NCBI GenBank assembly: GCA_030426085.1
Contig: JAUHYW010000067.1
Location: 1 to 60,040, forward strand
Origin: a bacterium
Lineage (GTDB): Bacteria; Myxococcota_A; Bradymonadia; UBA7976; UBA1532
Direction of reading: 5' to 3'
DNA length: 60,040 nucleotides
The position numbers and the translations under genes were made by a program. The first letter of the stretch is position 1. Every line of letters begins with the position of its first letter. The notes under the pieces were generated by a model that was not told the DNA's origin, did no database searches, and was given only the letters and a program-made list of their open reading frames with translations. Shown here piece after piece: positions 2,046-50,230 of the stretch.

Positions 2046-3104
2046 TCAGTGGGAGCCCGCGTCCCTGAAGGCTTCGAGCAGGGCTCGGCGCTCGCTGTCG
2101 AGCGCGGTCGGGATCTGCACCACCACCCGCAGGTGCATGTCGCCCCGCCGGGCCCGGCCCCGCTCGACCGAGGGCAGACCCTTGCCCCTCAGCTTCACCA
2201 GCGTCCCGGGCTGGGTGCCGGGCTCGATGTGCAGCGTCTCGGTGCCGTCGAGCGTCTCGAACTCGACCTCGTCGCCGAGGCAGGCCTGGACCATGTCGAT
2301 CTCGACCTCGCCGAGCAGCTCGGTGCCGTGGCGCTCGAAGCGCGGGTGGTCGGAGACCGTGATGACCACGTAGAGATCACCCGGCGGACCGCCCGGGTTC
2401 GACGATCGCTGCCCCTTGCCGCTGACCCGCAGCTTCATGCCGTGGTCGATGCCCGCCGGGATGCGGACCTTGACCCGGTCGGAGATCTGCTTGCCGCCCG
2501 TACCCCGGCACGCCCCGCACGGGTTGGCGACGACGCGCCCCTCACCGCGGCACCGGGGGCAGGCCGTGCGCATGGTGATGAAGCCCCGGTTGACCGCGAC
2601 CTGACCCTGCCCCCCGCAGGTCTGGCACGTCGTCGGCTCGCTGCCCTCCGCCGCGCCGCTGCCGTCGCAGGTGTCGCAGTCGACGGTGCGGGGGATGTCC
2701 ACCTCCCGCTCGATGCCGGTGAGGCAATCGGCCAGCGTCAGCTCCATGTGCATCCGCAGGTCGGCCCCCCGCGACACCCGCCGCCGGCCCCCGCCGCCGA
2801 AGCCTCCGAAGAGATCGCCGAACAGATCTCCGAACTGGCTGAAGATGTCGCCGATGTCGGAGAAGCCGCTGAAGCCCTGGTTCTCGAGGCCCTTCTTGCC
2901 GTAGCGGTCGTAGATCTGGCGCTTCTGATCGTCCGACAGCACCTCGTAGGCTTCGCTGATCGCCTTGAACCGCTCCTCGGCCTCGGCGTCGCCCGGGTTG
3001 CGATCCGGGTGATACTGCATGGCCTGCTTGCGATACGCCTTCTTCAGCGTGCGTGCGTCGGCGTCGCGGGACACACCGAGCAGTTCGTAGTAGTCGTCGG
3101 GCAT
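2046..3104 (-). CDS. dnaJ: Chaperone protein DnaJ (type I Hsp40)
   Basis: Co-chaperone that delivers unfolded clients to DnaK and stimulates its ATPase. The 352 residues contain a J domain (1-70) with the HPD motif at 32-34, a short G/F linker ([11 protein letters not shown]), and four zinc-finger CxxCxGxG-type repeats ([32 protein letters not shown]). The substrate-binding beta domains follow. It is slightly shorter than the 376-residue E. coli protein. I chose the ATG at 3102-3104 because [10 protein letters not shown] is the canonical N-terminus; the reading frame stays open for 87 more codons upstream without homologous sequence. No dnaK or grpE is present. A strong TTGACA promoter lies just upstream and is divergent from serA. 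Confidence 0.97.
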
Positions 3105-3139
3105 CGGTCTCTCGGCTCGTCTGCGGGGATTGTCGGCCG

Positions 3140-3167
3140 AGACTAGGCACGCGCCGCGGCTTGTCAA
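3140..3167 (-). promoter_or_regulatory. Promoter of dnaJ (TTGACA - 16 nt - TAGTCT)
   Basis: A perfect -35 TTGACA on the minus strand (3162-3167), a 16-nt spacer, and TAGTCT (3140-3145), placing the start about 30 nt upstream of the dnaJ ATG. No CIRCE-type repeat was seen. On the plus strand, TTGTGC (3213-3218), 15 nt and GATACT (3234-3239) is a weaker candidate for serA. Confidence 0.6.
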
Positions 3168-3276
3168 CCGCCCGCCGGGAGACGGGGGACATCCGCGGCC
3201 TCGGGGGGCCGCTTGTGCGGCGTCCGGCCATCTGATACTGCCGACTCCACCGTCGAGTGCACGCTGGAGGCGATCC

Positions 3277-4896
3277 ATGACCCGAATCCTGGTGGCCGAT
3301 ACGCTGTCGTCCGGCGCCGTCGAGGTGCTGGCCGCGACGCCCGGTTTCTCGGTGGACGTCCGCACGGGGCTGTCGGCGGAGGCCCTCGCCGCGATCGTCG
3401 GCGACTACGACGCGATCCTGGTGCGCCGCCCGACCCGGATCGACGCGCCGGTCATCGCGGCCGCCGAGCGCCTGCGCATGATCGGGCGCGCGGGCATCGC
3501 GACCGACAACGTGGACGTCGAGGCCGCCACCCGCCGGGGGGTGGTGGTGATGAACACGCCCTTCGGCAACGCCACGACGGTCGCCGAGCACGCGATCGGG
3601 CTCGTCTTCGCCCTGGCCCGCTCGCTGCCCCGGGCGGCGGCGTCGATGGCTCGCGGGGAGTGGGCTCAGGCGTCCCTCGAGGGGCGGCAGCTCGCAGGCA
3701 AGACGCTGGGCATCATCGGGCTGGGCACCGTCGGCCGGCTCGTCGCGCGCCGGGGGCAGGGCCTGGACATGACCGTCATCGGCTTCGATCCGTGGGTCGA
3801 CGCGGTCGACGTGCAACGCCAGATCGACATCGACGTCGTCAGCTTCGCCGAGCTGTTCGCCCGGGCCGACTTCATCTCGCTGCACGTCCCCCACACCGAC
3901 CGCACCCATCACTTCATCGGCGAGGCGGCCTTCGTCGCGATGAAGCGCGACGCCTGCCTGATCAACTGCGCCCGGGGCGGGCTCATCGACGAGCTGGCGC
4001 TCGAGAAGGCGCTCGACGCGGGCGAGATCGGCGGGGCCGCCCTGGATGTGTTCGAAGAGATGCCGCCCCCGGCGGATCATCCGCTGCGGCGGCATCCGCG
4101 GGTCATCGCCACGCCCCACCTGAGCGCGCAGACGCCCGAGGCCCTCGAAGCGGTCTCCCGCCAGCTCGTGGCCCAGACCCGGGACTTCTTCCTCGACGGG
4201 GTCGTGGCCCACGCCGTCAACAGCCCCCGGCTCACCCTCGAGCAGATCAAGCGCCTGGCGCCGCACCTCGACCTCGCAGCGCGGATCGCGACCATCGCCG
4301 GGCAGTTCGTCGGGCCGGATCTGAAGAGCGTGCGTCTGGTGGCCGCCGGCGACTTCGATCCCGATGATCTCGAGCCGCTCGAGGCCCACATGCTCGGCGC
4401 GCTGCTCGAAGCGAGCCGGGGTGAGCCGGTGCCGCCCGTGGCGGCGCGGGTGATCGCCCGGGATCAGGGGATCCACATCGAGACCGTGGCCCGGGACGGG
4501 GAGACCGACTTCAGCAACCTCATCCGGGTCGAGGTGCGGGGCGCCGACGGCGCGCGCCGCTGCATCGAAGGGGCGGTCTTCGGTCGACGGGAGCTGAGGG
4601 TGGTCGGCGTGGACGGGCACCGGCTGGATCTGGTGCCCGAGGGGCACATCCTGGCGATCCGCAATCACAACCGACCCGGGGTCATCGGGGCGGTCGGCAC
4701 GACGCTCGGGCGCCACGGCATCAACGTCGCGCGCATGGCCCTCGGGCTGCGCGGCGCCGACGACGAGGCGCTGGCGCTGTGGTGCACCGACACCGGCGTC
4801 GGCGATGACGTGCTGACGGAGCTGCGTGGGCTGGAGGGGATCGCCGACATCCGGCGGATCGAGCTGCCCCTGGTGGATGCTGCCCCTGGTGGATGA
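3277..4896 (+). CDS. serA: D-3-phosphoglycerate dehydrogenase (long form, ACT domain)
   Basis: Oxidises 3-phosphoglycerate to 3-phosphohydroxypyruvate with NAD+, the first step of serine synthesis. The 539 residues have the long-type layout: an N-terminal substrate domain, a Rossmann NAD domain with [13 protein letters not shown] and a following acidic FDPW, and the catalytic triad in [11 protein letters not shown] (Arg), DVFEEMPP (Glu) and [11 protein letters not shown] (His). The allosteric substrate-binding domain and a C-terminal ACT domain ([20 protein letters not shown]) follow, the latter normally sensing serine. The ATG at 3277 has GGAGG 8 nt upstream, which decides it against longer in-frame starts. 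It is divergent from dnaJ and convergent with the coiled-coil gene, with a perfect hairpin between. Confidence 0.96.
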
Positions 4897-42582: not shown

Positions 42583-43348
42583 GGGAGCCGCCCTGGCGCT
42601 CGCCCTGCTCACCCCGGCCGCCCTGCTGTGCCTCTGCGCGCCCGCCGCGGCCGAGCCGGTCGTGACCGAGACCGACGACGGCGTGGTCGACTGGACCCGC
42701 CGCACGGTCGAGGCCATCGGCGTCGGCACCCCCGACATCATCTCGCCCACCGGCGCGCTGACCCCCCGCGAGCCGTACGACGTCGCTCGGGAAGACGCCG
42801 AGAAGCGCATCACCCGCCTGCTGGCCCGGCTTCCAGTCGATGGCGAGCGGCGGCTGCGTGATCTGGATCCGCTCGACGCCCGGCGGGCGGCCGTCGCCAA
42901 GGCCCACGTCGCCGCCGAGACCCGCCACTTCAGCGACGGCACGGTGCACCTGCCGGCCAGCGCGTCGTTCGCCTGGGTCGCCGCCGAGTGGCCGGCCGAT
43001 CCGGCGGCGAAGATCGACGTGCCCGTCGGCCCGCCGCTCCCCGGGCCCAGCGGCCTCATCGTGAAGCTGGGCGCGCCGATGAAGCCCGCCGTGCGGCTGC
43101 GCCTGACGACCCCCGCGGGCGCGACCCTCGCCGCGGGCACGGTCCACGACCCGCTGGGCCCGACGGGGGCGGTCTTCGCCTACGCCGAGGCCGAGGTCGA
43201 CCTGCCCGCGCTCGTCGGCGACGCGCCGCTGCTCGTCGAGGCCGCCCCCGGCGAGGGCCGGGGCGCGATCACGCTGCCCGACGAGGCGCTGGTCGGGCAG
43301 CGGATCCCCGGCGCCATCGTGATCCTGTGGCCGGAGCCGAAGCGATGA
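42539..43348 (+). CDS. Exported LPP20-like protein
   Basis: A 269-residue exported protein with a signal peptide ([21 protein letters not shown]). The mature N-terminus [20 protein letters not shown] resembles the start of LPP20/FlgP-type envelope proteins, followed by helical residues where family members have repeated ARxxAxxDA patterns. The C-terminal 120 residues are beta-rich. The start at 42539 lies inside guaA (44-bp overlap) and gives a long positively charged n-region. No nearer ATG exists, but a non-standard start near 42590 cannot be excluded. It is coupled to the PEGA lipoprotein through ATGA. Function is unknown; envelope localisation is likely. Confidence 0.65.
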
Positions 43349-43683
43349 CCCGCCGCGCCTCTCTGCTCGCCACCGCCCTGATCGCGCTCGTCACCCTCGG
43401 CTGCGGCGGGGACGGCGTCATCCGCAAGGTCGGTGATCTGCCGCCGCCGCCCCCCGGGGCCGGCTTCGTCGAGATCAAGTGCGACCCGCCGACCGCCGAT
43501 CTCTATGTCGACGGGGTCTACCGCGGCCGGCTGGACGGCTACCGCAACGGTGTGATCCGCATGCCCGAAGGCCCTCGGCGGGTGGCGCTGCGCAAGAACG
43601 GCCACTACGCGTGGTACGGCACGGTCACGGTGGGGCAGGCGACGACAGTCATCGAGACCCGGCTGGTGCCCGAGGTGCCCTGA
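43345..43683 (+). CDS. Small PEGA-domain lipoprotein
   Basis: A 112-residue lipoprotein; the signal ends in ALVTLGC. The mature part is a PEGA beta-sandwich (EIKCDPPTADLYVDGVYRG ... PRRVALRKNGHYAWYGTVTVG), a fold common in Myxococcota surface lipoproteins that bind other envelope components. It overlaps the preceding stop (ATGA), so it ends the guaB-guaA-LPP20-like run. Confidence 0.85.
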   Translation: MTRRASLLATALIALVTLGCGGDGVIRKVGDLPPPPPGAGFVEIKCDPPTADLYVDGVYRGRLDGYRNGVIRMPEGPRRVALRKNGHYAWYGTVTVGQATTVIETRLVPEVP

Positions 43684-43819: not shown

Positions 43820-45655
43820 ATGTCCGCAAGCAGCGGCAAGCTCGAGCCGCTCAAACTGTTCAAGGTGTTCCGCAGCATCCTCGAGCGCCGGCTCGGGGGC
43901 ACGCTGACCGTGCGGCGGGGGCCGGTCGTCAAGCAGGCCCGCCTCGCGTTCGGCCAGGTGCTCGCCGCCGCCTCGAACCGCCCCGAGGAGAGCCTCGCCC
44001 GGGCGCTGGTGGACGAGGGGCTCATCTCGTCCACCGAGCGGGTCGAGATCGACGCCGCCCGCCGGGCCGACCGACGCAGCTTCGAGGCCCACGTCCGCGA
44101 GCGGGGGCTGGTGGCCGAGGGCCGACTCGAAGGCATCGAGCGCCGCATCTCGCGCACGGTCTTGCTGGAGTGCTTCGGCTGGCCCGATGGGACCTTCGAA
44201 TTCGCGGTGGCCCAGGTGCGGACCAACCCCGAGAAGCGGCCCATCGACACCGTCGAGCTGCTGCTCGAAGCCGCCGCCGCCCACCTGCCGACGCCCATCT
44301 GCGAGCGCTTCCTCAACACCTTCTCCGGCCAGCAGCTCGGCGCGACCGAGTGGATGCAGACCTACGCCGAGGTCTACGACCGGCTGTTCCCGCCGCCGAA
44401 CCTGCGGGGCATGCTGCAGAGCCCACTGCCGGTGGCCGCGGTGGCCAGCCTGCCGGGGGACAAGCCACGCAACTTGAGGGAAGGGGCCGCGCTGGTCCTG
44501 TCCGGCCTCGGCGCGCTGTCTCGGCTCGAAGGCGCCCGAGGGCCCGCGGCTCGGCAGGCGACCCGCTCCGGCCCGCAGCGGCCGGCCACCGCGAGCGGCC
44601 CTCAGCCACGCGCGGGCGGGTCTCGGGCTTCCGGCGGCCGCCGTCGAGCCGAGCGCTCGGTCCCGCCTCGACCGGCCTCGGTCGCGCCGCACCCGACCCG
44701 CTCTGAACCCCCGAGCGCTCGCCCGCCCGTCCGATCGTCCTCCGACTCGGCCGACCGGCCGGTGCGTGTGCGGGCCAGCCGAGGCCCCGGCGCGGCCCGC
44801 CCCGAGCGCGCGTCCGGTTCCAAGCGGCCCATGCGCCGCTCCGGCGCTCGCCGGGCGGCCCCGGCCGAGAAGAAGCCGATCCCGTCGAAGGTCCAGGCCA
44901 ACCTCGACCGGGCCGTGGCGCTCGCGCCAGAGCTGGAGCAGCGGACCCACTACGAGCTGCTCGAGATCGAGCAGGGCGCCGACGAGAAGGCCATCCGGCT
45001 GGCGTTCCGCCGGATGGCCCGCGACTTCCACGTCGATCGCTTCGCCCGCTACGGGCTCGACAAAGAGACCCTCGCGGCGGTGCAGAAGGTCTTCGTCGCG
45101 GCCAACAAGGCCCACGAGGTGCTGTCGTCGGCCGACAAGCGCAAGGAGTACGACATCGGCCTCGAGATGAAGGCCGGCGGGGCCAAGGTCGCCGCCGGCG
45201 GCGGGCCGCAGCTCGATCAGGTCTTCAAAGCCGAGAAGCTCATCAAGGACGCGACGGTCCTCATCGGCCGGGGGCAGCCCGACGCGGCGCTGGAGCGGCT
45301 CGAGACGGCGGGGCAGTCACTGCCCGACGACCCGGTCTACAAGGCGGCCAGAGCGTTCGCCGAGCACCTGCTCGCGCAGGGGCAGGGGGGCTCGCAAGTC
45401 GTCCTCGGGCGCACCCGGGAGGCGCTGGAAGAAATCTGCGCCGAGCTCGACAATCGCGAAGAGCCCTTCTTGTATCTCGGGCGCATCTATCGCACGCTCG
45501 ACGAGCCGGAGAAGGCCATCCGGGCCTTCGAACGCGCCTTGAAGATCAACCCGCACTATGCCGAGGCGGGCAGCGAGCTGCGCCATGTGCAGCGCAAGAT
45601 CGAGCAGAGCAAGAGCAGCGGTCTGGCCGGGCTGTTCGGCCGGCGGAAGAAGTAG
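43820..45655 (+). CDS. DUF4388/PATAN-type protein with degenerate J domain and TPRs
   Basis: A 611-residue cytoplasmic protein. Residues 1-200 resemble the DUF4388/PATAN module of Myxococcota and Geobacter signalling proteins (LGGTLTVRRGPVVKQARLAFGQVLAA). An Arg/Ser/Pro-rich disordered linker (about 230-350) follows. A J domain (about 375-445; THYELLEIEQGADEKAIRLAF) has HVD (404-406) in place of the HPD that drives DnaK, so it probably cannot stimulate ATPase. A TPR tail ends in EEPFLYLGRIYRTLDEPEKAI. It is followed with no gap by another PATAN protein, suggesting they work together. Confidence 0.8.
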   Translation: MSASSGKLEPLKLFKVFRSILERRLGGTLTVRRGPVVKQARLAFGQVLAAASNRPEESLARALVDEGLISSTERVEIDAARRADRRSFEAHVRERGLVAEGRLEGIERRISRTVLLECFGWPDGTFEFAVAQVRTNPEKRPIDTVELLLEAAAAHLPTPICERFLNTFSGQQLGATEWMQTYAEVYDRLFPPPNLRGMLQSPLPVAAVASLPGDKPRNLREGAALVLSGLGALSRLEGARGPAARQATRSGPQRPATASGPQPRAGGSRASGGRRRAERSVPPRPASVAPHPTRSEPPSARPPVRSSSDSADRPVRVRASRGPGAARPERASGSKRPMRRSGARRAAPAEKKPIPSKVQANLDRAVALAPELEQRTHYELLEIEQGADEKAIRLAFRRMARDFHVDRFARYGLDKETLAAVQKVFVAANKAHEVLSSADKRKEYDIGLEMKAGGAKVAAGGGPQLDQVFKAEKLIKDATVLIGRGQPDAALERLETAGQSLPDDPVYKAARAFAEHLLAQGQGGSQVVLGRTREALEEICAELDNREEPFLYLGRIYRTLDEPEKAIRAFERALKINPHYAEAGSELRHVQRKIEQSKSSGLAGLFGRRKK

Positions 45656-46948
45656 ATGGGGCGCCGCGACGACAAGAAGGGCTACGTGCAGATCGACGAG
45701 TCGGGCCGGATCTACGTGCTCGGCAGCGGCCTGCGCAAGACCCTCGGCAAGCTCGCCGGCTACTACACCCACCTGCCGTCCGACGCGGCGCTTCTGCACT
45801 TCCAGCGCGCGACGAGCGTGCCGACCTACGACGAGTTCCGCGACCCGATCATCCTTCAGGGCGACATCGCGGCGATGGGCTCGACCATCGAGGTGATCAA
45901 CTTCGTCACCTCGGCCCAGCTCTCGGGCAACCTCGTCATCGTCAGCGAAGACACCCGCAAGTGCCTGTATTTCAAGAACGGCGAGGTGCGCGGGGCGGCC
46001 TCGAACCGGGCCGAGGACCGGCTCGGCGAGATCATGTACCGCTTCGGGGCGCTGACCCGCGAGGCGCTCGAGGCCGCGCTCGAGCAGTGCCGCCGCATCC
46101 GCCGGCCGCTGGGCAACTTCCTGCTCGATCAGGGCGTGCTGACGCAGGTCGAGCTGTACAAGTTCGTGCGCAAGCAGGTCGAAGAGACCTTCTACTCGAT
46201 CCTGCTCATCAGCGACGGCGACTTCTACCTGACCCGATTCGACGTCGACGCGCTGCCGAGCCCGCTCTCGCTCAACGCCCAGAACCTCTTGATGGAGGGC
46301 CTGCGGCGGATGGACGAGATGTCATACTTCCGCAAGCAGATCCCCGAGATGACGACCCGCATCGGCCTCGGGCGCAACGAGCCGTCGAGCCGGAACGCCA
46401 TCGGCCAGAAGGAGCGGGTGATCCTGCGGGCCCTCGAGCAGCCGCGCACCGTGCAGGAGCTGATGGCCCGGTGCCGCTTCGGCGCGTTCGAGACGATGAA
46501 GCAGCTCTTTCACATGCTTCAGGCGGGCTTCATCCAGATCATCGAGGCCGACGACACCGCCGAAGCCGCCGCCGAGGTCGACCCGACGACCGCCGAGTCG
46601 GCCCGGCTCATCGACACGTTCAACTCGGTCTTCCAGCGCATCTATCAGGCGATCGCCCGCCACGGTCGGCAAGACGCGCTCGACCAGGGGCTCGAGACGT
46701 TCCTGCAGTTCTACGGCTTCGTCGAGCTGTTCCAGGGCGTCGCGTTCGACGGCAAGGGCCAGCTCGACAAGGCCCGGCTGCTGACCAACCTCAGCGGGCA
46801 GGCGGCCGAGAACCGGGTGAGCTTCTTGTCGCAGGCGCTCAACGAGCTGCTGTTCTTCGAGATGTTCGCCGCCCGCGAGTGGCTCGAACGCGACGAACAG
46901 CAAGAGCTGCAGAAGATCATCAATCAGCTCTTCATCGACATCGGCTGA
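45656..46948 (+). CDS. DUF4388/PATAN-type protein
   Basis: A 430-residue cytoplasmic protein. The core (about 75-210) is a DUF4388-type domain: INFVTSAQLSGNLVIVSEDTRKCLYFKNGEVRGAAS, followed in the same module by LGEIMYRFGAL and GNFLLDQGVL. Such domains occur in bacterial signalling and motility proteins and are proposed to be interaction modules. Two more helical blocks follow, the last FLSQALNELLFFEMFAAREWL. The ATG abuts the preceding stop (TAG-ATG) with GGAAGAAG as ribosome site, so it is co-translated with the J-domain partner. Confidence 0.8.
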   Translation: MGRRDDKKGYVQIDESGRIYVLGSGLRKTLGKLAGYYTHLPSDAALLHFQRATSVPTYDEFRDPIILQGDIAAMGSTIEVINFVTSAQLSGNLVIVSEDTRKCLYFKNGEVRGAASNRAEDRLGEIMYRFGALTREALEAALEQCRRIRRPLGNFLLDQGVLTQVELYKFVRKQVEETFYSILLISDGDFYLTRFDVDALPSPLSLNAQNLLMEGLRRMDEMSYFRKQIPEMTTRIGLGRNEPSSRNAIGQKERVILRALEQPRTVQELMARCRFGAFETMKQLFHMLQAGFIQIIEADDTAEAAAEVDPTTAESARLIDTFNSVFQRIYQAIARHGRQDALDQGLETFLQFYGFVELFQGVAFDGKGQLDKARLLTNLSGQAAENRVSFLSQALNELLFFEMFAAREWLERDEQQELQKIINQLFIDIG

Positions 46949-47077: not shown

Positions 47078-48178
47078 ATGGATTCTGAGACGCCAGGGAC
47101 CCCATTCACGAAGTCAGCGACGGCGACGCCGAGCTGCGCCCCGCCCCTCGATCGGGCCCTCGTCGACGCCCGTATCGAAGACGACCCGATGATCCGCGCC
47201 GTGCGCGGCCTGCCCGACCACTTCGATCTCGGCTGGCGCGCGGCGGCCGGCGTCGCCCGTGGATTCGCCGGCGCCGTGGATCGGGTCGTCGTCTGCGGGC
47301 TCGGCGGCTCCGCCTTCCCCGCCGATCTGGTGTGCGTCGCGGTCGACGTCCCGTTGGCCGTCTCCCGGGACTACGCCGTGCGCGCCCCGATCGACGGCCG
47401 CGCCCTCGTCGTCGCCAGCTCGTTCAGCGGCAACACCGAAGAGACGCTCGCCGCCTTCGAGGACGCCCGCCGCCGTGGCGCGCGCCTCCTCGCGCTGACC
47501 GGCGGCGGACGTCTCGCCGCCCGCGCCACCGAGCTCGGCGTGCCCGTCATCCGGCTCGAGCGGCCGTTCCCCGGATTCCAGCCGCGCGCGGCCACCGGCA
47601 TGTTCATCGGCGCCCTCGGCCGCGTGCTCGAAGACGCCGGCCTCGCCGCGGGCTTCGCGAAGATACTCGACGGGCTCGGCGATCGGATCCGCGGGCTCGT
47701 CGATGTCGAGGCCCGCGCCACCGAGCTGGCCGAGGCGCTGCACGGGCGGATCCCGATCGTCCTGGCCACCGCGCCGTTGGCCCGCTCGGCGGCGCGCATC
47801 ATCAAGATCAAGCTCAACGAGAACGCCAAGATCGCTGCCTTCTGGAGCGCGATCCCCGAGTTCAACCACAACGCGCTGGTGGGCTTCACCCGGCAGCATG
47901 GCCCGTTCTCGGCGGTGATCCTGCGCGACCCGAGCTGCGCGTCGCGCATGGCTCATCGGGTCGAGATGACCGCGCGAACCCTCGCGGGGTGCGGCGTGCC
48001 GGTGCACCCGATCACGTTGCCGTCGGCCCCGCCCATCGAGCAGGCGTTCGCCGCGCTGTATCTCTTCGACTTCGTGAGCTGCCGACTCGCGCTTCAGGCC
48101 GGGATCGATCCCAACCCGGTGGCGCTGATCGAGTCGTTCAAGGCGAGCCTCGGCCCGAACCCGTCGCCAGCGGGTTGA
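47078..48178 (+). CDS. Bifunctional phosphoglucose/phosphomannose isomerase-type SIS protein
   Basis: A 366-residue tandem SIS-domain protein of the archaeal-type bifunctional PGI/PMI family (aldose-ketose isomerisation of glucose 6-phosphate or mannose 6-phosphate). The first SIS domain has VVVCGLGGSAFPADL and the phosphate loop ASSFSGNTEETL. The second domain carries IIKIKLNENAKIAAFWSAIPEFNHN, where Glu and His residues of the active site are expected. The ATG at 47078 lacks a ribosome site and is 8 nt from CATTAT, so translation may be leaderless. The 129-bp upstream gap otherwise shows only weak repeats. Its 3' end overlaps the convergent BamB gene by 41 bp. Confidence 0.85.
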   Translation: MDSETPGTPFTKSATATPSCAPPLDRALVDARIEDDPMIRAVRGLPDHFDLGWRAAAGVARGFAGAVDRVVVCGLGGSAFPADLVCVAVDVPLAVSRDYAVRAPIDGRALVVASSFSGNTEETLAAFEDARRRGARLLALTGGGRLAARATELGVPVIRLERPFPGFQPRAATGMFIGALGRVLEDAGLAAGFAKILDGLGDRIRGLVDVEARATELAEALHGRIPIVLATAPLARSAARIIKIKLNENAKIAAFWSAIPEFNHNALVGFTRQHGPFSAVILRDPSCASRMAHRVEMTARTLAGCGVPVHPITLPSAPPIEQAFAALYLFDFVSCRLALQAGIDPNPVALIESFKASLGPNPSPAG

Positions 48179-49367
48179 CCGGGGGCAGCGGCGGCAGCAG
48201 CGCGCCGGGGCGGAAAGCGAAGAACTTGCCGGCGTTGGCCAGCGCGAACAGCGAGCCGTCGCGCCCGACGGTCGCCGGGGCCATGAACCCCCCGCCCGGC
48301 GCGAAGTGCCACACCGGGCGCCCGCTGCGGGCGTCGATCAAGCGCAGCGCGCCGGTGGCGGTGCTCACCGCGAGCAGCTTGCCCATCGGCTCGATGGCGG
48401 TCGGCGAGCCGTCGTGCTCGGGCAGCTTCACCCGCCAGCGGGCCCGCCCGGTCTCGGGATCGATGCGCACGATGGCGCCCTGGTCGATGCCGGCGAAGAG
48501 GTCGCCGTGGTAGCCCCGCATCACCACGACGCCCCGCACGGTGCGGGTCCAGACGACCTCACCGGTGGCCGGGCGCAGGGCGTACAGCCCGCCGGCGACC
48601 GAGGCGGCGTACAGCGTGCCGTCGATCACCACCGCGCGGGCGTCGATGTCTTCGAATTGCTCGGCCTCGGGGGCCAGATCGCGGGTCCACAGGACCGCGC
48701 CGTCCTTGCTCGACAGCGTGACGAGCACCCCGTCGGAGAAGCCGACGTGCACCCGGCCGCCGACCACGGTCGGCGGCGCCTCGCCGTACAGCGCGAAGCG
48801 ACCGGGCGCCTCGCGCCGATACTGCCAGCGCCATGCGCCCGAGCGGCGGTCGAGCGCGTAGATCGCGTTGGTGCCGTCGACGACCAGCAGCGTATCGCCG
48901 CTGACCTCGGGGGCCGCGACGACCGCGCCGGGCACCGAGTAGCGCCACTTCACCTCGCCCGTCGCGCCGGCGAACGAGACCACCTCGCCGCCGTCGCTGC
49001 CGACCACGACCTGCCCGTCGTCGAAGATGGCCCGCCCGCTGGTGCCGCCGGGCAGCGGCGTCTTCCACAGCAGATGTCCGTCCGACGCGCGGAACGCGTA
49101 GAACCAGGCGCGATCGGCCGAGCCGACCCACACCCGGCCGCCCTGGGGGTCGTAGGCCGCCGCCGCGAGCTGCTGCCCGTCCTTGCGGGTCACCCCGCTC
49201 GGGGCCAGATCGACCCGCCAGATCGGGTCGATCGGCACGGCCTGCATGTTCTTGGTGCGCCCGGTCAGCGGCGTCTCGTCGCCGGCGACGCCGAACGCGG
49301 TGCCGCACCCGACGAGAGCCAGCGCGCCGACGAGCGCCGTCAGCGGGCCCGCTACGCTCCGGATCAA
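48138..49367 (-). CDS. bamB: BamB-like PQQ-propeller lipoprotein
   Basis: A 409-residue lipoprotein. The signal MIRSVAGPLTALVGALALVGC ends in the anchor Cys. The mature part is an eight-bladed PQQ/WD-type propeller with repeated motifs such as ASDGHLLWKTPLPGG, GATGEVKWRYSV, SKDGAVLWTRDL and PATGEVVWTRTV. BamB is the propeller subunit of the BAM complex that inserts outer-membrane barrels. The upstream neighbour is YfgM-like, reproducing the E. coli yfgM-bamB order, which supports the name. The start is a TTG overlapping the YfgM stop (TTGA) and gives the only in-frame signal peptide. The 3' end overlaps the convergent isomerase by 41 bp. Confidence 0.82.
   Translation of the reverse strand: MIRSVAGPLTALVGALALVGCGTAFGVAGDETPLTGRTKNMQAVPIDPIWRVDLAPSGVTRKDGQQLAAAAYDPQGGRVWVGSADRAWFYAFRASDGHLLWKTPLPGGTSGRAIFDDGQVVVGSDGGEVVSFAGATGEVKWRYSVPGAVVAAPEVSGDTLLVVDGTNAIYALDRRSGAWRWQYRREAPGRFALYGEAPPTVVGGRVHVGFSDGVLVTLSSKDGAVLWTRDLAPEAEQFEDIDARAVVIDGTLYAASVAGGLYALRPATGEVVWTRTVRGVVVMRGYHGDLFAGIDQGAIVRIDPETGRARWRVKLPEHDGSPTAIEPMGKLLAVSTATGALRLIDARSGRPVWHFAPGGGFMAPATVGRDGSLFALANAGKFFAFRPGALLPPLPPVNPLATGSGRGSP
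48158..48176. terminator. Small hairpin in the convergent overlap
   Basis: AACCCG (48158-48163) and CGGGTT (48171-48176) form a 6-bp stem with a 7-nt loop in the last codons shared by both convergent genes. It is weak as a terminator. Confidence 0.25.
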
Positions 49368-50230
49368 CTCGACCGCCCGAGCTGCGCGATGCGGCGCTCC
49401 AGATCGGCCTTGAGCGCCCGGTTGGCGAGCTGTTCGAGGCTGGCGGCGTGGTCGGCCTGCACCTGCTCGTAGACCGCCTTGGCCTCGGCGTCCTTGCCCT
49501 GCGCCTCGAGCAGCCGGCCGGTCTGCATGCCGGCGATCAAGCCGAAGGCCTCCCGATCGACGCCCTCGACCGCCTTCCAGGCGGCGATCGCGCCGTCGAG
49601 GTCGCCCTTGCCCTCCAGCGCAGCGGCCTTGCCCTGCAAGGCCAGCGCCTCGACCATCGGGGTGAGGTCGGGCCCGGCCAGCGCCTTCTCGTACAGCGCC
49701 AGGGCCGCGTCGGCGTCGCCCAGATCCATGCGGGTGCCGGCCTCGCCCAGCGCGCTGAGGCGGCTGATGGGCTGGTCGGCGTAGGCCTGCGCGGTGCGGG
49801 CGAAGGCCTGACCGGCCTTCTCGACCCGCGCCTTGCGCTCGTCGGCGGACAGCGCCTTCTCGTCGCTGCCGGGGGCCGGCGGGCGCACCGTCTCGACATA
49901 CGTCTCGGCGGCGTCGCCGAACGCGGTCGCCGCCTCCTCCGAGCCGGACGTCTTCTGCCCCTGCATGACGATGATGGCGATGACGACCGCCGCGGCGATG
50001 CCCAGCCCGGCGATGATGATCCCCCGGTTGTCGACGAGCCAGCTCACCCCGCCGGCCACCGTGCGGGTGAACTCGTCTTCGCCGAGGCTCTCGAGCTCGG
50101 CCCGGAAGCCGGCCCCGGGGTCCGCTGGGGCCTCGGGCACCTCCGGGCTGCCGCCGTCGACCACCTCGTCGGTGCCCTCGGGGGCCGTGTTGTCGCTCTT
50201 GGAGACTCGCTTCCTGATCCGCTTGACCAC
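49364..50230 (-). CDS. YfgM-like membrane-anchored TPR protein
   Basis: A 288-residue protein: an acidic cytoplasmic stretch (about 10-60), one membrane helix (GIIIAGLGIAAAVVIAIIVM, about 70-89), and a periplasmic tail of TPR-type helices (AQAYADQPISRLSALGEAGTR, GDLDGAIAAWKAVEG). The layout matches YfgM/TPR_21 proteins, which bind the SecYEG translocon and periplasmic chaperones and sit beside bamB. The GTG at 50228-50230 follows GGAG. Its stop overlaps the bamB TTG start, so both are translated together from the TTGACA promoter upstream. Confidence 0.85.
   Translation of the reverse strand: MVKRIRKRVSKSDNTAPEGTDEVVDGGSPEVPEAPADPGAGFRAELESLGEDEFTRTVAGGVSWLVDNRGIIIAGLGIAAAVVIAIIVMQGQKTSGSEEAATAFGDAAETYVETVRPPAPGSDEKALSADERKARVEKAGQAFARTAQAYADQPISRLSALGEAGTRMDLGDADAALALYEKALAGPDLTPMVEALALQGKAAALEGKGDLDGAIAAWKAVEGVDREAFGLIAGMQTGRLLEAQGKDAEAKAVYEQVQADHAASLEQLANRALKADLERRIAQLGRSS

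Follow-up and report, generated by a model that had tools for sequence, protein, structure and literature searches.

Domain organization of the J protein

A gene at 43820–45655, on the forward strand of the 60,040-nucleotide stretch of bacterial DNA analyzed here (the window), encodes a protein with an N-terminal DUF4388 domain, a J domain and a tetratricopeptide repeat (TPR) region. The J domain is a chaperone-helper domain that nearly always carries a His-Pro-Asp (HPD) motif; in this protein the motif is HVD. The DUF4388 domain, which we take to be the PATAN family, is also present in the product of the next gene. The features of the J protein are as follows.

43820..45655, + strand: DUF4388(PATAN)-linker-J-TPR protein, 611 amino acids, ATG start (open reading frame, Pfam, orthologues)
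43832..44275, + strand: DUF4388/PATAN domain, residues 5–152 (Pfam PF14332, 48.3 bits; cut-off 25)
44525..44914, + strand: Arg/Pro/Ala/Ser low-complexity basic linker, residues 236–365, bounds set by eye (poorly conserved)
44945..45154, + strand: J domain, residues 376–445 (Pfam DnaJ PF00226, 42.5 bits; cut-off 27.8)
45029..45037, + strand: HVD replacing HPD, residues 404–406, codons CAC GTC GAT (read directly)
45254..45568, + strand: TPR region, residues 479–583 (Pfam TPR_19 and TPR_2/TPR_14)
45620..45652, + strand: C-terminal GLAGLFGRRKK tail (read from the sequence)

The J domain scores 46.3 bits in a genome-wide J search and also matches DnaJ chains of solved structure. The J-region sequence with the motif, from the frame 43820–45655, is RMARDFHVDRFARYG. 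An earlier sequence-only reading of this DNA had placed HVD at residues 404–406, and both the motif and its position are correct. The domain is a J domain by its profile and, reading HVD, falls outside the canonical HPD-bearing J-domain co-chaperones. Within the TPR region, the TPR_2 match covers residues 551–580. A C-terminal end consisting of LFG plus basic residues is seen, by eye, in most members of the window's order in a 25-row alignment of orthologues. The predicted structure of the J-TPR part is of low confidence, with a mean predicted local distance difference test score (pLDDT) of 59 and values of 31–47 per ten-residue block over residues 1–100 of the model, which include the J domain.

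The HVD motif in the sister genome and in the class

A sister genome of the same genus (L001, which is genome G001 and is counted once) encodes the same protein, with 72% identity in the best segment; a more distant relative, L002, is 43% identical. L001 retains HVD with other third bases (His CAC/CAT, Val GTC/GTG). Over the 31 codons of residues 390–420, the two genes differ by 11 synonymous changes and one amino-acid change, while 49 synonymous and 43 amino-acid differences are found over 128 aligned codons of the linker. Because the sister genome encodes the same His and Val by other codons, HVD is not an error. The different Val codon, together with the lack of Pro in all class orthologues read (see below), rules out a sequencing or assembly error at 45032–45034, to which we assign a negligible probability.

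Two profiles were used to survey the motif. The first (A1), comprising the J and TPR regions of the window protein and L001, matches 34 of 38 genomes at 1e-10 or better, the window's own genome included. The second (A2), a 25-row profile, matches 187 of 188 genomes of the phylum, again including the window's own, and 32 of 37 class genomes match it at 1e-43 or better; G017 and G102, which are among these 32, give partial matches and are not in the motif count. The loci read are the best-scoring matches plus regions picked by score across families, and are not a random sample.

The motifs in 41 class genomes are HVD (23), HAD (7), GAD (6), HID (3), HLD (1) and SAD (1); 40 of these genomes were tallied together with the tree rebuild described below, the remaining one being L063. 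Pro is found in none of the 41 orthologues, Asp in all of them and His in 34. The seven without His are all seven read from a single family, f4 (GAD/SAD), and all 34 orthologues outside f4 have both His and Asp. The 25-row alignment contains four invariant columns, among them the motif Asp, and the J-domain profile matches all 28 class members scanned at an E-value of 0.01 or better. Since every class orthologue read lacks Pro, its loss is real and inherited. The HPD loss noticed from one sequence is thus borne out among its homologues: the HVD observation is correct and holds more widely than was claimed, and the interpretation placed on it, weighed below, is half right.

Other J-TPR relatives encoded in the same class genomes read HPD in six of seven cases (L160–L164 and L166), L165 being KAD. 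Because these relatives keep HPD, the motif was not abandoned by the class in general.

Relatives outside the class

Outside the class, HPD is read in 34 of 38 J-TPR stretches (37 genomes), and the remainder are HID, HTD, SIG and DPA. This count leaves out a second, weak J-like frame at L140 (50.8 bits, gapped motif) and the loci L153 and L154 of the window's own genome. The sequence-only reading had held that orthologues with intact HPD would point to a sequencing error. Relatives with HPD do exist at a distance, but all 41 same-class orthologues lack Pro, and no error is implied. DUF4388 is present in 30 of the 37 J-TPR relatives scanned (36 from outside the class and L153; L134 and L138 were excluded).

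The distribution of Pro was examined on two trees. The first, with 80 rows, was scored for Pro in the middle of the motif, a label under which L143 (DPA) counts as Pro; it needs five changes, compared with a mean of 26.2 after shuffling. A tree rebuilt without the HPD columns and with four rows dropped needs four changes (shuffled mean 25.0). The rows dropped were L054 (a duplicate of L106), L147 and L143 (long-branch rows reading SIG and DPA) and L150 (a very long HPD row). The shuffles demonstrate clustering only, and branch support is from the Shimodaira-Hasegawa-like approximate likelihood ratio test (SH-aLRT) alone. The simplest, as yet unproven, reading of these sequences would be that Pro was lost once, early in one orthologue lineage. 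Two results argue against a single loss: one outside-class row with HPD (L123, genome G038) falls inside the class clade in the 80-row tree, on a long branch with a support of 84, and the class rows require three changes, not one, in the rebuilt tree. L123 is possibly misplaced, or possibly a close relative that has HPD.

The outside-class rows L120 (G148) and L125 (G192), which read HID and HTD, lie at separate positions of the tree and possibly represent independent losses of the same Pro.

Conservation of Hsp70-contact residues

Residues contacting Hsp70 were scored by alignment to E. coli DnaJ. Across the 29 rows from the window's order plus families f5 and f6, His33, Asp35, a basic residue at position 26 in helix II and Phe47 are each present in 29 of 29, and Pro34 is present in none. 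Only f4 lacks all three of His, the helix-II basic residue and Phe47. Among the 39 rows labelled as outside the class, one of which (L153) is a paralogue from the window's own genome, position 26 is F, L or M in 26 and non-basic in at least 32. The helix-II basic residue is held by most of the lineage without Pro and is mostly absent in the HPD relatives. J-domain proteins with TPRs, and the DUF4388-J-TPR proteins of the phylum, share the same J fold followed by TPR. They differ in that relatives outside the class mostly have HPD and usually a hydrophobic residue at position 26, whereas the window's order combines H-V/A/I/L-D with a basic residue there.

In a crystal complex (PMC8215388), H33 bonds with L391, D35 bonds with R167 and Q378, and DnaJ P34 is in hydrophobic contact with DnaK P419. 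Changes of the His and the Asp abolish stimulation in tested systems (PMC8215388, PMC13254874), and the J domains tested in another study were compromised when their basic residue in helix II was changed (PMC1906734). In simulation, P34A lengthens helix II and loosens the orientation of H33 and D35 (PMC13012618). This literature supports the suggestion, already made from the sequence, that canonical HPD-type stimulation is probably impaired.

J proteins with an altered motif are classed in a recent review as type IV, which have a recognizable J domain with HPD non-conservatively replaced (PMC13254874). In the window's order Pro is replaced by aliphatic residues, yet His and Asp are held. Pam16 (DKE) and DnaJB13 (HPL) likewise have a recognizable J domain with an altered motif (PMC13254874). 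However, these have lost the His and/or the Asp, whereas the window protein keeps both and only Pro is replaced; it is also bacterial, fused to DUF4388 and encoded next to a second DUF4388 protein. Among the open-licence papers listed, we recognized none on DUF4388 with DnaJ or on this family, which is not proof of absence; the name DUF4388 occurs in one paper, on a different topic.

The adjoining DUF4388 protein

The gene directly downstream encodes a second DUF4388 protein (hereafter, the partner), with the following features.

45656..46948, + strand: second DUF4388 protein, 430 amino acids (open reading frame, Pfam; neighbour in 13 of 13 loci of the order)
45860..46321, + strand: DUF4388 domain of the partner, residues 69–222 (Pfam PF14332, 77.6 bits; cut-off 25)
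46019..46177, + strand: MshEN-like cyclic diguanylate (c-di-GMP) motif pair within this DUF4388, residues 122–174 (NF053729, 40.2 bits; cut-off 38)
46328..46945, + strand: C-terminal region of the partner, residues 225–430 (strong matches in five genomes of the window's family among 111 searched)

The stop codon of the J protein (TAG, 45653–45655) directly abuts the ATG of the partner at 45656, and a GGAAG stretch lies six bases 5' of this ATG. That a second PATAN/DUF4388 gene follows without a gap had also been read from the sequence, and the pairing extends well beyond the window. Of 16 genomes surveyed from the window's order, 13 encode an orthologue of the J protein; G004 and G008 have none, and G012 has a weak paralogue only. 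The partner adjoins the orthologue in all 13 (L072–L082, L084 and the window). The genes abut in the window and L072, a gap separates them in L081, L082 and L084, and in others the partner starts within a few bases. The partner is adjacent in none of eight loci from other class families, some of whose contigs are short there.

Among 111 genomes of the phylum searched, matches of at least 260 bits to the C-terminal region of the partner are limited to five genomes, all from the window's family. Weak matches (38–67 bits) come from eight genomes, which belong to four families outside the class; the 13 matching genomes include no same-class genome from outside the order, of which 16 are listed unmatched. 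The copies of the partner in family f2 are known from the neighbourhood survey and were aligned.

DUF4388 was detected in six of the 28 class J proteins scanned, a set that contains six order members; the scan does not identify which six carry the domain. The remaining class J proteins have open frames of 253–369 amino acids in which the J domain lies close to the N-terminus, leaving little or no space for DUF4388. The DUF4388 of the J protein and the DUF4388 partner occur together in the genomes examined. This co-occurrence therefore points to a PATAN-PATAN pairing of the two proteins. The predicted structure of the partner is of low confidence (pLDDT 40).

The PATAN-REC regulators of Synechocystis have the PATAN domain in common with the window pair, provided that DUF4388 is, as we presume, PATAN. 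The pair differs from them in its J domain and TPRs, and in that a Pfam scan gave no receiver-domain match in either protein. The PATAN-REC regulators (PixE and others) bind PilB1 (PMC9090330); no link to pili was seen for the window pair.

An MshEN-like motif in the partner

The partner DUF4388 matches the Protein Data Bank chains of PilF (1.3e-7), MshE (0.0044) and also PilB. The c-di-GMP-binding MshEN domain contains two RLG...LxxxLxxQ motifs, with an Arg and a Gln in each (PMC5013675). The partner resembles MshEN in its NF053729 match and in the Arg of motif I and the Gln of motif II, which are invariant in 13 of 13 partner orthologues. It differs in the Gln of motif I, which is A or C, and the Arg of motif II, which is Pro, also in all 13. 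With half of the key Arg and Gln residues kept, the partner lacks the full motif of an MshEN c-di-GMP receptor, and sensing of c-di-GMP or another nucleotide by it is speculative.

The window's own genome contains 15 DUF4388 matches and ten NF053729 matches. Six of the latter, four of them over the cut-off, lie inside DUF4388 matches (46019–46177 in the window, L189, L192, L193, L195 and L197). Because of this overlap, the helical insert of PATAN and MshEN may be related. The available part of PMC5013675 mentions neither PATAN nor DUF4388, and a kinship of PATAN with MshEN is stated neither there nor in the available part of PMC9090330.

J domains and Hsp70 proteins in the same genome

The genome from which the window derives encodes 13 J domains, ten of them with HPD. 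The three without HPD are the three that share an open frame with DUF4388: the window protein, a protein reading DPH whose N-terminus resembles, by eye, a receiver domain (L014/L154, G000:C149), and an 840-residue frame reading KGV or GVE by alignment (L017/L153, G000:C169). Five long Hsp70 matches are present. The four that are readable at the linker all keep, by eye, Pro at the position of DnaK P419, and no co-varying DnaK with an altered P419 was found among these four. This site is unreadable in the short Hsp70 matches and in L038, whose frame is interrupted by an in-frame TGA.

Two other chaperone loci may be noted. The window also contains, some 40 kb from the J protein gene, a canonical dnaJ-like gene whose HPD is intact, at 2046–3365 on the minus strand (J match 2907–3095, 103 bits; L006). 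At G000:C34:53560-56091 (L038 and L009), the Hsp70-like frame L038 lies just upstream of a J protein with HPD, and the two are possibly a decayed or divergent dedicated chaperone pair.

Functional interpretation

We tentatively favour a reading in which the window protein is a PATAN-J-TPR adaptor with an attenuated, not dead, J domain that docks on Hsp70, stimulates it poorly and is paired through PATAN with the product of the next gene. Attenuation with docking is proposed because His, Asp, the helix-II basic residue and Phe47 persist throughout the 29 rows without Pro. The Pro of HPD would have been replaced early in the class by V, A, I or L, with selection keeping these four residues in the window's order, f5 and f6. 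The domain would still dock on Hsp70, but with its His and Asp poorly positioned, and would recruit or hold the chaperone while stimulating its ATPase weakly or conditionally. The DUF4388 of the J protein would pair with that of the next gene's product, a possibly nucleotide-responsive partner, and the DUF4388 pair would bring the complex to a client that the TPRs bind and whose identity is speculative. A stronger proposal, which we consider unlikely in its full form, is that loss of Pro alone uncouples docking from ATPase stimulation. The J protein would then tether the chaperone or act as a brake on it, and in one order the switch would be a PATAN partner that co-evolved with it and has an altered MshEN nucleotide pocket.

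In a close rival, a real possibility that we rank below the attenuated adaptor, the J fold has lost its Hsp70 function entirely and is a protein-interaction module, a pseudo-J domain like Pam16. The sequence-only reading also saw the domain as probably turned into an interaction module; it was right that HPD is genuinely altered, but only Pro is lost, and the other contact residues remain. Their retention (His in all orthologues outside f4, Asp in all, position 26 and Phe47 in all 29 rows) would not be expected of a domain freed from Hsp70, which should eventually lose His, as happened in f4, and Pam16 and DnaJB13 did lose the His and/or the Asp. Keeping His, Asp and the helix-II basic residue in the absence of Pro would fit docking that continues with weak stimulation.

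Several observations weigh against an attenuated, docking J domain, and part of them speak for the dead module. HPE seems to be the sole tolerated change of HPD (PMC13254874), so that His and Asp together may not suffice; that changes of His or Asp abolish stimulation also speaks for the dead module. His and Asp could also be kept for another contact. Family f3 (five rows, four genomes) has both residues but F or H at position 26. Family f4 (seven rows) has G or S at 33, as part of G/S-A-D, with F or M at 26 and N at 47, and from its sequences looks like a dead interaction module. The helix-III contacts Lys48 and Lys51 are mostly lost, although mostly lost in the HPD relatives as well. Related J proteins have also lost HPD, namely the PATAN-J paralogues of the same genome (DPH and KGV) and the class paralogue L165 (KAD); these paralogues indicate that the DUF4388-J architecture can lose its Hsp70 function.

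It is more improbable still that the protein has an ordinary, fully active J domain whose middle V, A or I is accommodated by the DnaK of the lineage or by other J residues. The retained His, Asp and helix-II basic residue would agree with full activity, as would a designed domain lacking HPD but able to stimulate Hsc70 (PMC13254874). However, HPD predominates both in the relatives outside the class and among the J domains of the same genome, the P419 position is unchanged in the four Hsp70s read, and P34A perturbs the His and Asp geometry in simulation (PMC13012618).

The orthologue lineage offers a natural series, from HPD in relatives, to HVD, HAD, HID and HLD, and then to GAD and SAD. His and Asp are held in most families while Pro is lost, which makes this a natural test of the role of the proline; the middle residue was previously addressed, in the available literature, by simulation and engineered changes. 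Whether a J domain can dock on Hsp70 without driving it becomes directly testable. The proposed adaptor would also connect DUF4388 proteins with the chaperone system and perhaps with nucleotide signalling.

Neighbouring genes

A small PEGA-like open reading frame (43342–43683) is located upstream of the J protein; its PEGA score of 20.2 bits is just below the cut-off of 20.8. Downstream, three genes at 47078–50230 are syntenic in several members of the order; by eye, we take them to be sugar-phosphate isomerase-like, BamB-like and TPR-like.

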